From: Streptomyces sp. ICBB 8177
Lineage (GTDB): Bacteria; Actinomycetota; Actinomycetes; Streptomycetales; Streptomycetaceae
NCBI RefSeq assembly: GCF_003144095.1
Contig: NZ_NSKH01000018.1
Span: 2,261,541 to 2,325,540, forward strand
Direction: 5' to 3'
DNA length: 64,000 bases
In this document: positions 5,340 to 22,196 of the stretch, piece after piece
Layout: each line of letters opens with the position of its first letter
Numbering within the stretch: the stretch's first letter is position 1
Made by a program: the position numbers and the translations under genes
Notes under the pieces: model-generated
The model's database searches: none
Seen by the model: only the letters and a program-made list of their open reading frames with translations
Told to the model about the DNA's origin: nothing

Positions 5340-5543
5340 GGGCCGCGGCGCCGGCAAGGGACCCTCAGCCCTCGCGGCACCGCAGCCCTCAGCTGCCGTC
5401 GGCGCCGGTGGCGCGGGGTGTGCGGTCCCCGCGGCCGGGATGCCGACCGGGTGGGAGGCCGCGACGCAGTCAGGGCAGAGAGCGCCGGTGGCCTCGATCC
5501 GCCCTCCTGTGCGGGGAGGACGGAGGCTTGCCGATGTCAATTG

Positions 5544-19747: not shown

Positions 19748-21070
19748 TCACCCGCCCGCTCGCGCGTCCCACAGCTGCCTCGACCTCGATGCCACGACCT
19801 GGACGATCCTGGCCACAGCCGGCGCCATCGGCTGCTCGAAGCGGCGGCCGTCGCGCAGGCGCAGGGCCACGGCGCCCGCCTCCGCCTCCCGCGCGCCGAC
19901 GACCGCCTGGTACGGGGCGAGCCGCGCCGCCCGCACCCGCGCCCCGAGGCTGCCCCGCTGCGGCCCGGCGACCTCGGCCCGCAGTCCCCGCTCCACACAC
20001 CGCCGTGCGAACTCCTGCGCCGCCGCGTACTGCGCGTCGGACACCGGCAGCACGACCACCTGCACCGGTGCCAGCCACGCGGGCCACGCCCCGCCGTACA
20101 CCTCGATCAGCCGGGCCACCGCCCGTTCCACGCTGCCGATCACACTGCGGTGCACCATCACCGGCCGCCGCCTGCTCCCGTCAGCGGCCACGTACTCCAG
20201 GCCGAACCGCTCCGGCTGGTGGAAGTCGACCTGCACGGTGGACAAGGTCGCCTCGCGCCCCGCGTCGTCCGCGATCTGCACGTCGATCTTCGGCCCGTAG
20301 AACGCGGCCTCGCCCTCCACCGCCTCGTACGCGATCCCGCACCCGTCCAGCACCTCGGCCAGCAGCGCCGCCGCCCGCCGCCACATCGCCGGACCGGCCA
20401 CGTACTTGCCGCCCTCGCCGGGCAACGACAGCCGGTAGCGGGCCGGTTCGACGCCCAGCACCCCGTACGCCCGCCGGATCAGCTCCAGCGCGGCGCGGGC
20501 CTCTTCGGCAGCCTGCGCGGGGGCGCAGAAGACGTGCGCGTCGTTGAGCTGGATCGCCCGCACCCGGGTCAGCCCGCCCAGCACGCCGGACCGCTCCGAA
20601 CGGAACATCGCGCCCAACTCGGCGATCCGCAGCGGCAGTTCGCGGTAACTGCGGGCACGTGATCGGTAGACCAGCGCGTGGTGCGGGCACAGGCTGGGAC
20701 GCAGCACCGCCTGCTCGCCGTCGCCCAGGTCCATCGCGGGGAACATGTCGTCCGCGTAGTGCGACCAGTGCCCGGAGACCTCGTACAGCTCCCGTTTGCC
20801 GAGCACGGGCGAGTACACGTGCCGGTAGCCCGCCCGCCGTTCCTCCTCGCGCACGAACTCCTCCAGCTCGTGGCGTACGACGGCGCCGTCCGGCAGCCAG
20901 TACGGCAGGCCGGCGCCCATCAGCGGATCGCTTCCGAACAGCCCCAGTTCCCGCCCGAGCCGGCGGTGGTCGCGCGCGGGCGGCGGCCCGTCCGCCCCAC
21001 GGCGGTCGTGGGATCCGGGCAGGTCGTCGTGGGATTCGGGTACGTCGTGGGATCGACGGGATCGGTCCAT
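19748..21070 (-). CDS. thrS2: Short threonyl-tRNA synthetase lacking TGS and editing domains
   Basis: A 440-residue class II synthetase. After a polar N-terminus, the catalytic core has motif 2 RELPLRIAELGAMFRSE and motif 3 HRSVIGSVERAVARLIEVYG, followed by an anticodon-binding domain from ~340. Zinc ligands match ThrRS: Cys in RPSLCPHH, His in NDAHVFC, His in VMVHRS. The ~240-residue N-terminal TGS and editing domains of housekeeping ThrRS are absent. AGGAG lies eight bases before ATG 21070. It is preceded by a leader peptide with two Thr codons and a terminator hairpin. A second, housekeeping thrS elsewhere is expected. The symbol is descriptive. Confidence 0.85.
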   Translation of the reverse strand: MDRSRRSHDVPESHDDLPGSHDRRGADGPPPARDHRRLGRELGLFGSDPLMGAGLPYWLPDGAVVRHELEEFVREEERRAGYRHVYSPVLGKRELYEVSGHWSHYADDMFPAMDLGDGEQAVLRPSLCPHHALVYRSRARSYRELPLRIAELGAMFRSERSGVLGGLTRVRAIQLNDAHVFCAPAQAAEEARAALELIRRAYGVLGVEPARYRLSLPGEGGKYVAGPAMWRRAAALLAEVLDGCGIAYEAVEGEAAFYGPKIDVQIADDAGREATLSTVQVDFHQPERFGLEYVAADGSRRRPVMVHRSVIGSVERAVARLIEVYGGAWPAWLAPVQVVVLPVSDAQYAAAQEFARRCVERGLRAEVAGPQRGSLGARVRAARLAPYQAVVGAREAEAGAVALRLRDGRRFEQPMAPAVARIVQVVASRSRQLWDARAGG

Positions 21071-21113
21071 CAGGTGGTCTCCTCGCCGGGTCGCGGAGCG
21101 GATGACCACACGG

Positions 21114-21145
21114 CGAAGCCCCGGGGCACCCGCCCCGGGGCTTCG
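21114..21145 (-). terminator. Attenuator hairpin before the short ThrRS gene
   Basis: A perfect 14-bp stem (CGAAGCCCCGGGGC / GCCCCGGGGCTTCG) with a four-base loop, ending 43 bases before the synthetase start. It lies between the leader peptide and its structural gene, so its likely job is conditional termination rather than separating genes. No U-run follows, as is usual in actinobacteria. Confidence 0.8.
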
Positions 21146-21160
21146 ACTTCACGTCATCGT

Positions 21161-21220
21161 TCAGCGCGCCGGGACACTCTCCGGCGTCGTCAGGCCCAGG
21201 CCCTCACCAGCGCGCTTCAT
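21161..21220 (-). CDS. Thr-codon leader peptide (attenuator)
   Basis: A 19-codon frame reading MKRAGEGLGLTTPESVPAR and stopping 15 bases before the attenuator hairpin. Codons 11 and 12 are consecutive Thr codons (ACG ACG), the regulatory amino acid expected for a threonyl-tRNA synthetase. A small hairpin, CGCCGG at 21167-21172 with CCGGCG at 21181-21186, forms right after the Thr codons and could be the pause or antiterminator partner. No ribosome site precedes the ATG; it probably sits at the transcript 5' end. Confidence 0.6.
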   Translation of the reverse strand: MKRAGEGLGLTTPESVPAR

Positions 21221-21226
21221 GCGACC

Positions 21227-21256
21227 ACGGTAGCCGCGCCTTCCCACGACCGCGAA
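21227..21256 (-). promoter_or_regulatory. Candidate leaderless promoter for the ThrRS leader
   Basis: On the minus strand, TTCGCG (21251-21256) and TACCGT (21227-21232) are 18 bases apart, and the -10 ends six bases before the leader ATG. That spacing places transcription start at or next to the ATG. The -35 is weak; this is inference. Confidence 0.4.
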
Positions 21257-21296
21257 CGGTTTTCCCACGCCGGCGGTCCGCCAGGCCCTGCGCCGC

Positions 21297-22196
21297 TCAC
21301 TTCAGCGGGTTGTCCGCCACGAACCGCCGCAGCTCGGCCGCCAGCGCCGTGGGGTTGTCCAGCTGGACGAGCGTGCGGGCGTCCGGGATCTCCACGTACC
21401 GCCCGCGCGGCAGCAGTTCCGCGAGGCGCCTGCCGGTCGCGGGCGGCATCATCACGTCCCGCGCGCCCCACGCGACCAGCGCGGGACGGTCGAACCCGGG
21501 CAGGCGCCCGGCCGCCTCACGGTAGGTGTCCTTGCGCGTCGAGCGCAGGAACCGCGTCAGATCGCGGCGGATCGCCGCGTTCGTCAGCAGCGGCCCGTAC
21601 CACTCGCGCACCAGCTCGTACGGGATCGGCCGGTGCGCCATCCCGCCGAGCGAGAACGGCATTCCCACCAGGAAAGGGACGCGGAACGTCTGGAGCATCA
21701 GGAGCAGCCCGCCCGGCACCGAGCAGGCCAGCTCCAGCGCCTTGCCCTGCATGCCCGGCGGGTAGTTGTCCAGCGCCTCGCACGAGGTCAGCACCAGGCG
21801 GCCGACGCGCTCGTCCCGTACGCCGACCAGGAGTTGGGCGGTGCCCGCGTCGTTCTGCACGAGGGTGACGTCGCGCAGGTCGAGGCGTTCGAGGAACTCC
21901 GCGAGCAGTCCGGCCACCCCCTGCGCCGACAGGTCGGTACCGGGCCGCACCGGCCTGCGGTGCGCGCCGATCGGCAGCACGGGCACCACGATCCGGAACT
22001 CGCCGCGCAACTCCCGTACCAGCGGGTCCCACACGGAGGCGCCGAACCCCAGCCCCGGCACGAGCACGAGGGTCTCGCGCGCGCCGCCGTCATGCTGCCC
22101 GGTGCCGGTGCCGGTGCCGGTGCCGGTGCCGGTGCCTCCCGGCTCTCCGGTGTCCGTGTAGTCGATGACGCCTGCGCTGAGTTCGATCTCGGGCAT
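21297..22196 (-). CDS. Alpha/beta hydrolase, dehalogenase-like nucleophile
   Basis: A 299-residue alpha/beta hydrolase. The oxyanion segment is LVPGLGFGASVWDPLV. At the nucleophile elbow the usual GxSxG is replaced by VQNDAGTAQL, which puts an Asp where haloalkane-dehalogenase-type members have theirs. The C-terminal acid/His region includes WGARDVMMPP and the late VQLDNPTALA; an expected final His is not obvious, so activity is uncertain. Start ATG 22196 (MPEIELSAGVIDYTDTG) was preferred over 22229. Residues ~20-32 are a Gly-Thr run encoded by a hexanucleotide repeat. Confidence 0.75.
   Translation of the reverse strand: MPEIELSAGVIDYTDTGEPGGTGTGTGTGTGTGQHDGGARETLVLVPGLGFGASVWDPLVRELRGEFRIVVPVLPIGAHRRPVRPGTDLSAQGVAGLLAEFLERLDLRDVTLVQNDAGTAQLLVGVRDERVGRLVLTSCEALDNYPPGMQGKALELACSVPGGLLLMLQTFRVPFLVGMPFSLGGMAHRPIPYELVREWYGPLLTNAAIRRDLTRFLRSTRKDTYREAAGRLPGFDRPALVAWGARDVMMPPATGRRLAELLPRGRYVEIPDARTLVQLDNPTALAAELRRFVADNPLK
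22101..22136. repeat. Hexanucleotide microsatellite (GGTGCC)x6
   Basis: Six perfect tandem copies of GGTGCC encode Gly-Thr repeats (read on the minus strand) near the N-terminus of the hydrolase. Unit changes keep the frame, so copy-number drift only changes linker length. Confidence 0.95.

Follow-up and report, generated by a model that had tools for sequence, protein, structure and literature searches.

The window, the whole 64,000-nucleotide stretch of DNA that was analysed, carries on its minus strand a gene for a threonyl-tRNA synthetase (ThrRS) of 440 aa (21070–19748, ATG at 21070). Its Pfam matches comprise the class II core and the anticodon domain only, and its TIGR00418 match runs from model position 171 on, in agreement with an earlier note on this DNA that had described a ThrRS without TGS and editing domains; a full-length ThrRS is encoded elsewhere in the same genome, which bears out the accessory status assumed there. 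Upstream, likewise on the minus strand, a −10 element, TACCGT (21232–21227), is followed six bases further on by the ATG of a leader ORF of 19 codons plus TGA (MKRAGEGLGLTTPESVPAR, 21220–21161), and a leaderless transcript is expected. The Thr codons of this ORF, ACG ACG (21190–21185), are overlapped by a 6-bp hairpin, H1 (CGCCGG 21186–21181 with CCGGCG 21172–21167). H2 (GUCCCGG 21175–21169 with CCGGGGC 21138–21132) is an alternative to H3, a perfect 14-bp GC stem, CGAAGCCCCGGGGC/GCCCCGGGGCTTCG (21145–21132 with 21127–21114, loop GGGT). The peptide, its two Thr codons, the small hairpin and the perfect stem of the earlier note were all located at these positions. The top of H3 contains a masked candidate decoy, GGCGGGUG (21127–21134), complementary to an anti-Shine-Dalgarno (anti-SD) stretch, GUGGUCAUCCGCU (21109–21097), composed of GUGGUC (21109–21104) and CAUCCGCU (21104–21097). 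In the minimum free energy fold the anti-SD pairs with the SD region of thrS (GAGGAG 21084–21079, GACCAC 21079–21074), forming H4. Folding of 21235–21060 was more stable than that of dinucleotide shuffles (z −2.88; 1 of 200 shuffles as low). The regulatory element continues past the interval covered by the earlier note (21114–21256) to the thrS start at 21070, and its decisive half lies downstream of that interval.

The leader matched no Rfam family at gathering score, and neither a T-box nor the Rfam Thr operon leader was among the matches listed to E 10 for 21060–21300 (best 0.096, on the other strand). Between 19500 and 22500 a sigma-70 scan gave no promoter-like site; a terminator scan of the same interval gave no U-tract terminator-like site on the leader strand and one on the other strand. 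Across the window, one Rfam family alone exceeded its gathering score, the Streptomyces sRNA scr5239 (RF02605, 80.6 bits; 5348–5526, minus strand). GGTGCC hexamer repeats at 22101–22136 form a Gly-Thr tract near the start of a minus-strand alpha/beta hydrolase ORF.

Spread of the leader, its promoter and its threonine codons

Homologous loci were collected by keeping the best 80 of 264 relatives, which came from Streptomyces, Streptacidiphilus, Embleya, Yinghuangia, Actinacidiphila, Streptosporangium, Microbispora, Nonomuraea, Saccharopolyspora and others; the leader was present in 79 of the 80. The remaining locus (L066) keeps H3 and the SD hairpin, is preceded by DNA unlike that of the others and lies near a contig end; it represents either a natural loss of the leader or an assembly junction. 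A covariance model (R1) and an alignment (A1) were built from 63 of the 79 leaders. Searched against 394 genomes of the window's class, R1 gave 59 matches of at least 46 bits, of which 58 lie directly upstream of a short ThrRS; the other (L107) is at a contig edge. In the reverse survey a short ThrRS was found in 62 of the 394 genomes, with a patchy distribution (one of two genomes in the window's own genus); 58 of the 62 have an R1 match, two (G201 and G210, ThrRS 58 and 55% identical) have divergent Thr leaders (L165, L166) recognised by eye, and two (G153, G293) end at contig edges. Wherever the DNA upstream of the short ThrRS could be read, in 60 of 60 surveyed genomes, a Thr leader was therefore present, recognised by eye in two. 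Among 159 genomes drawn from the phylum, four gave an R1 match, one of them outside the class (G689:C154:13159–13295, 157.6 bits); this genome is listed with 5% contamination, and the match reflects either transfer or contamination. Eleven weak matches away from thrS (L153–L163, at most 37.4 bits, no ThrRS homologue nearby) were taken as chance hairpin matches; the remaining weak rows were four reverse-strand matches to the H3 hairpin and G390. The element is present across several actinobacterial families, and conservation on this scale appears to be new.

Leader counts refer to 137 leaders for codons and −10 elements, 136 for hairpins, 135 with the hairpin and 134 for SD, folding and promoter tests, near-duplicates included. 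L066, L107 (contig edge) and L120 (a second copy of the window) were left out of these counts; the core set omits L060 (no SD found by the script), the hairpin tables omit L152, and the SD tests omit L149, for which no start was found.

A TANNNT element starting 12–13 nt before the start codon was found in 134 of 137 leaders, compared with 2 of 1896 background positions, as expected for the leaderless promoter that the earlier note had put forward; among the three leaders that missed the test, L113 did so because the script had chosen a start too far downstream. When leaders were aligned on the −10, GAAAWY, with its first base at −41 to −36, occurred exactly in 47 of 134 and with at most one mismatch in 92, leaving 42 with neither; shuffles gave 0.12 exact matches and 3.2 with at most one mismatch, and other windows 0 and 0–14, respectively. 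In the window itself, GAAAAC (21259–21264) is located 3 bp before a weak −35, TCGCGG (21255–21250), which is 17 bp before the −10. This is the spacing of the WblC/WhiB7 consensus, GAAAWY 3 bp before the −35 and 16–19 bp before TANNNT, as given in the available part of the WblC study (PMC7157823). Table 1 of that study lists thrS2, lysS, alaS2 and trpS of S. coelicolor as WblC-activated, and thrS2 would be the short ThrRS. Judged by the promoter motif, transcription of the short thrS is probably raised by WblC.

The Thr run comprises three in-frame codons in 136 of 137 leaders and two in one, the window, so that the pair of codons in the earlier note is the exception and three are the rule; lack of conservation of these codons had been named there as grounds for refutation. 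In their in-frame, conserved run of cognate codons the leaders agree with a classical ribosome-mediated transcription attenuator. The run consists of ACG in 405 of 410 codons, compared with 92 ACG among 1923 Thr codons of the short-ThrRS frames (counted stop to stop). Past the run the codons hardly vary in their nucleotides (CCG in 137, then GTC in 127, CCG in 133, GCG in 134 and CGC in 132 of 137), and the peptide ends on PESVPAR in 77 of 137 leaders and on PETVPAR in 20. In L080, L104, L148 and L152 the sequence or frame past the Thr codons differs (for example PEVSRRAD or PELRTRRAE before the stop) and CGCCGG...CCGGCG is retained nonetheless; L165 and L166 likewise combine altered ends with a retained nucleotide block (by eye). 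Leaders with altered ends still have their Thr codons in the reading frame of the start codon. This pattern argues for the RNA rather than the peptide being what the leader ends conserve.

L165 and L166 keep the Thr codons and the SD lock described below with other letters (GGGCUCC/GGAGCCC), and a further upstream GAGCCC copy could serve as their decoy (both by eye). In some members the ACG run could be paired by eye with a UCGUCGU past H3; this pairing was not conserved and was rejected. A GCGCGC near the leader start is present in 103 of 137 leaders; it may pair with the untranslated leader end and so contribute to an off state, which is compatible with the predicted fold of the window.

Competing hairpins around the Shine-Dalgarno sequence

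H1 was exact in all leaders but L081 (135 of 136), confirming the small hairpin of the earlier note; being invariant in the alignment, it provides no covariation evidence. An H2 core of at least 5 bp is possible in 134 of 135 leaders, both 7-nt strands are present in 111 of 135, and H2 showed no double changes on the alignment of 63 leaders. A script detected the H3 hairpin in 135 of 136 leaders, and two of its pairs show double changes. By these counts mutually exclusive 1:2, 2:3 and 3:4 pairings are predicted to be possible in the leaders. Just past H3, the richest 8-nt window contains at most three T in 122 of 135 leaders, four in 12 and five in one. The H3 of the window, tested as a U-tract terminator, has no such tract, and the description of the 14-bp stem as a terminator in the earlier note was not supported in that form.

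For H1, H3 and H4 together, the 63-leader alignment gave 8 pairs with double changes compared with 3.5 in shuffles (0 of 500 as high) and 28 double-change cells compared with 10.9 (0 of 500), and pair types numbered 17 compared with 15.0 (55 of 500 as high). H4 was also analysed free of alignment, using 128 unique pairs from 134 leaders: each anti-SD paired with its own SD at −17.68 kcal/mol, compared with −15.66 (sd 0.19) kcal/mol after permutation, with 0 of 5000 permutations as low; permutation leaves shared ancestry in place, so this zero and that of the decoy test below are not probabilities. Striking H4 variants are L028, L138, L142 and L150, and SD variants that rank low against foreign anti-SDs occur in L035, L063, L115, L136, L140, L141 and L144. 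The SD of thrS thus appears to be held in a conserved hairpin, as in a translational attenuator. Such a probable lock on the ribosome binding site of thrS appears to be new.

The anti-SD (CACUCGCC) has a second possible partner besides the SD, namely the complementary top of H3, typically GGCGAGUG. On the alignment, double-change cells numbered 14 in this decoy helix, compared with 3.5 in shuffles (0 of 500 as high), and the paired fraction of its cells was 95.4%, compared with 93.4 (0 of 500); two of the five measures were unremarkable, namely pairs with double changes (3 compared with 2.0; 131 of 500 shuffles as high) and pair types (128 of 500). In the permutation test (126 unique pairs from 135 leaders, 20 loop classes), decoys bound their own anti-SD at −13.25 kcal/mol, compared with −11.25 (sd 0.44) kcal/mol for permuted partners, with 0 of 5000 as low. 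Loop and anti-SD covary, for example, as AAGU/ACUU, GGGU/ACCC, GAGC/GCUC and GAAC/GUUC. Three of the 20 loop classes, GCGAGUCG (L014), GGCGAGUGGC and GGGUGAGCGCC, paired no better with their own partner than with foreign ones, and one pair of the helix is an A-C mismatch in 7 of 63 leaders. Taken together, the mostly absent U-tract and a covarying SD hairpin that shares its anti-SD with the H3 loop point to control of translation initiation; some transcript loss at H3 may add to this control.

Switching was analysed by imposing H2 on the folds. In full-length leaders, a gain in SD accessibility above 0.3 was seen in only 5 of 134 (medians 0.333 and 0.334, equilibrium), at a mean cost of approximately 12 kcal/mol (−44.4 compared with −56.1) which arises because H3 is lost. 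In nascent RNA ending before the SD, the decoy held the anti-SD in 118 of 134 leaders with H2 imposed and in 3 of 134 without; in full-length RNA with H2 imposed, the decoy stayed on the anti-SD in 41 of 134. Since equilibrium folding does not open the SD in most leaders, a switching model needs kinetics. The direction of switching proposed below is inferred, and equilibrium folding alone does not support it.

The short ThrRS enzyme

The protein data comprised 152 aligned short ThrRS rows, repeats included (L002, L009 and L120 are the window's own gene), with short and full-length enzymes separated by identity cuts of at least 54% and below 50%, so that rows in between would drop out. For the tree, 74 sequences were used (40 deduplicated short rows, 32 full-length actinobacterial ThrRSs, S. 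aureus and human). All 40 short ThrRSs group together (support 0.953), and their clade branches with the S. aureus ThrRS (0.994) rather than with the 32 full-length sequences; an origin outside the actinobacterial lineage is suggested by this, with a single Firmicutes sequence in the tree. C413, H464 and H590, which we take to be the Zn ligands of the ThrRS core, are kept in 152 of 152 short rows. In some short ThrRSs the stretch N-terminal to the conserved DHR motif is long and variable, with many His and Asp residues (21070–20975, minus strand, in the window; L093; L089); the window reads SHDVPESHDDLPGSHD, L093 has HD repeats, and the region is possibly metal-binding.

Positions contacting borrelidin were compared in human numbering (PMC4389257). 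The M411 position is S in 148 of 152 short enzymes and M in 32 of 32 full-length ones; Q460 is L in 152 of 152 short enzymes (full-length: Q 28, M 4); L567 is Q in 150 of 152 (full-length: L 21, Q 5, M 5, T 1); and A592 is S in 141 of 152 (full-length: A in 32 of 32). Mutations of E. coli ThrRS at the equivalents of L567 and H388 raised the borrelidin Ki 300- to 1,000-fold (PMC4389257). A simple reading as borrelidin tolerance is opposed by H388, which is unchanged in the short enzymes, by H391, which is W in 24 of 32 full-length enzymes and kept as H in 146 of 152 short ones, and by Q566, where both groups differ from human. Ser or Ala at E. coli Gly463, whose role in ObaO-type inhibitor resistance is described in the part of PMC11252418 available, was considered and is absent from the window protein, which reads FYGPK. 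Tolerance to ThrRS inhibitors is plausible, given the altered pocket residues and the listing of thrS2 among WblC-activated genes in the available part of PMC7157823.

Proposed control of thrS and its alternatives

The reading that we hold to be somewhat better than evenly likely is a ribosome-mediated attenuator gated by Thr-tRNA and acting mainly on translation initiation of the accessory ThrRS; it rests on comparative sequence data. When charged tRNA-Thr is plentiful, the ribosome would complete the leader and H1 and H3 would form; the decoy would be masked in H3, the anti-SD would pair with the SD, and ThrRS would be off. When Thr-tRNA is short, the ribosome would stall on ACG, cover the 5' side of H1 and so block this hairpin. 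The freed H1 strand (strand 2) would then invade H3 by pairing with its 5' arm (H2), and the unmasked decoy would capture the anti-SD during transcription, before the SD is made, so that the SD would emerge open. WblC probably raises transcription under ribosome stress, which would result in two-key control, and the gated product would be a spare, perhaps inhibitor-tolerant synthetase. In its fullest form the proposal is tentative, and we put it at a little under even: H3 would be a cage for a decoy SD, opened co-transcriptionally by the ACG stall; the WblC promoter would be the second key, with ribosome stress and lack of Thr-tRNA (perhaps of the ACG-decoding tRNA) both needed; and the product would be a borrelidin-tolerant spare ThrRS from outside the actinobacterial thrS lineage.

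Of the attenuation proposed in the earlier note, the leader ORF, the Thr codons and the competing hairpins stood; its classical transcriptional form fared less well, the U-tract being mostly absent and the downstream SD hairpin covarying. The idea of attenuation has thus survived the check on Thr-codon conservation, and the terminator reading is probably in part wrong. Classical transcription attenuation, with H3 as terminator, H2 as antiterminator and the SD hairpin secondary, is rather unlikely, even if it is the strongest competitor. The H1/H2/H3 topology resembles that of trp and pheM, GC-rich terminators without a U-run are often discussed for actinobacteria, the H2 core can form in nearly all leaders, and forced H2 leaves the SD closed at equilibrium, as would fit a role of H2 in termination. 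The scarcity of T past the stem in 122 of 135 leaders counts against it, covariation of the SD hairpin and of loop with anti-SD would go unexplained by pure termination, and the authors of the S. lividans RNA-seq study call termination at thrL unclear in the available part of their report (PMC8079986). Another account, that the leader senses ribosome-targeting antibiotics through any stall, aided by rare ACG, in the manner of the wblC uORF rather than through Thr-tRNA charging, is distinctly less probable. The WblC-like promoter motif and the rarity of ACG among the Thr codons of short-ThrRS genes speak for it, as does the description, in the part of PMC7157823 available, of the WblC regulon as translation-stress genes and of wblC itself as subject to uORF-mediated attenuation; it is opposed by the conserved codons, which are those for the amino acid of the downstream synthetase, three in a row in 136 of 137 leaders, and by the strong R1 matches, which all precede a short ThrRS except for the contig-edge case.

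Two further explanations are very improbable. Stalling by the nascent TTTPESVPAR chain as an arrest peptide would fit the strong conservation of the PESVPAR and PETVPAR ends, yet codons are conserved beyond synonyms and the C-terminus is altered or out of frame in L080, L104, L148, L152, L165 and L166 with the nucleotide block persisting; out-of-frame ends with intact RNA argue against an arrest peptide and for a ribosome sensed by its position. That ThrRS binds its own mRNA in a feedback loop, or that the element is a T-box, we give equally little weight: the element is a thrS leader, as either would require, and its conserved core is a translated ORF with Thr codons; the Rfam matches listed to E 10 include neither a T-box nor a Thr operon leader. 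In E. coli, moreover, ThrRS binds the thrS mRNA through N-terminal domains that the short enzyme lacks.

The attenuator preferred here, acting on translation initiation, shares cognate codons, competing hairpins and a downstream synthetase gene with known leader-peptide attenuators before synthetase genes, and differs from them in that the amino acid is Thr, the U-tract is mostly absent and the SD is sequestered, with a decoy in the loop. Translational attenuators of the ermC type, controlled by a leader, also hide and free the SD of a resistance gene; in contrast to erm, codons rather than a drug-bound peptide are conserved here. Translational T-boxes of actinobacterial ileS likewise hide and free the SD of a synthetase gene (PMC1262725, in the part available), the sensor there being a tRNA-binding RNA and here the translating ribosome; for threonine operons the same part of that study reports no conserved structure. 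In Anabaena, two ThrRSs (T1 and T2) resemble the present pair in combining a constitutive editing enzyme with an inducible one poor in editing; T2 is induced by low zinc and its editing is impaired, in contrast to the short enzyme here, in which TGS and editing domains are absent (PMC4787780, in the part available). Trans-editing by T1 and T1-T2 heterodimers were shown there (PMC4787780), and by analogy trans-editing by the full-length partner would compensate for the missing editing domain.

The thrL-thrS locus of S. lividans TK24 carries the same element, with the peptide MKRVRPFLETTPGFVPAR, leaderless on RNA-seq evidence and placed before thrS (PMC8079986, in the part available); translation by eye of L174, a leader upstream of a short ThrRS, gives this peptide. 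In that part of the report, the authors describe one hairpin without a uridine-rich stretch and leave termination open, and one species is covered; alternative structures, the SD hairpin, the decoy and the survey come from the present analysis. In the literature searched, which mostly excludes subscription journals, the leader itself was met only in PMC8079986, in the part available, and its spread, its nucleotide-level logic, the SD lock and the decoy were not met. What was already known is therefore the leader in one species, and what appears to be new is its wide conservation and the likely SD lock. Table 4 of the S. lividans report lists leaders upstream of alaS, trpS, leuS and thrS (PMC8079986); together with the WblC-activated synthetases, this suggests that the two-key plan may be general.

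Through these results the one-species annotation thrL becomes an RNA element of several actinobacterial families, and a concrete mechanism is put forward for how attenuation could work without a U-tract terminator. Because ACG, a rare codon, is used almost exclusively, sensing specific for a codon or an isoacceptor can be tested directly; the altered pocket makes the short ThrRS gene a candidate intrinsic tolerance gene against natural products that target ThrRS. For spare, stress-induced synthetases a plan is suggested in which WblC/WhiB7 would switch the gene on and an amino-acid-specific leader would decide whether it is translated.
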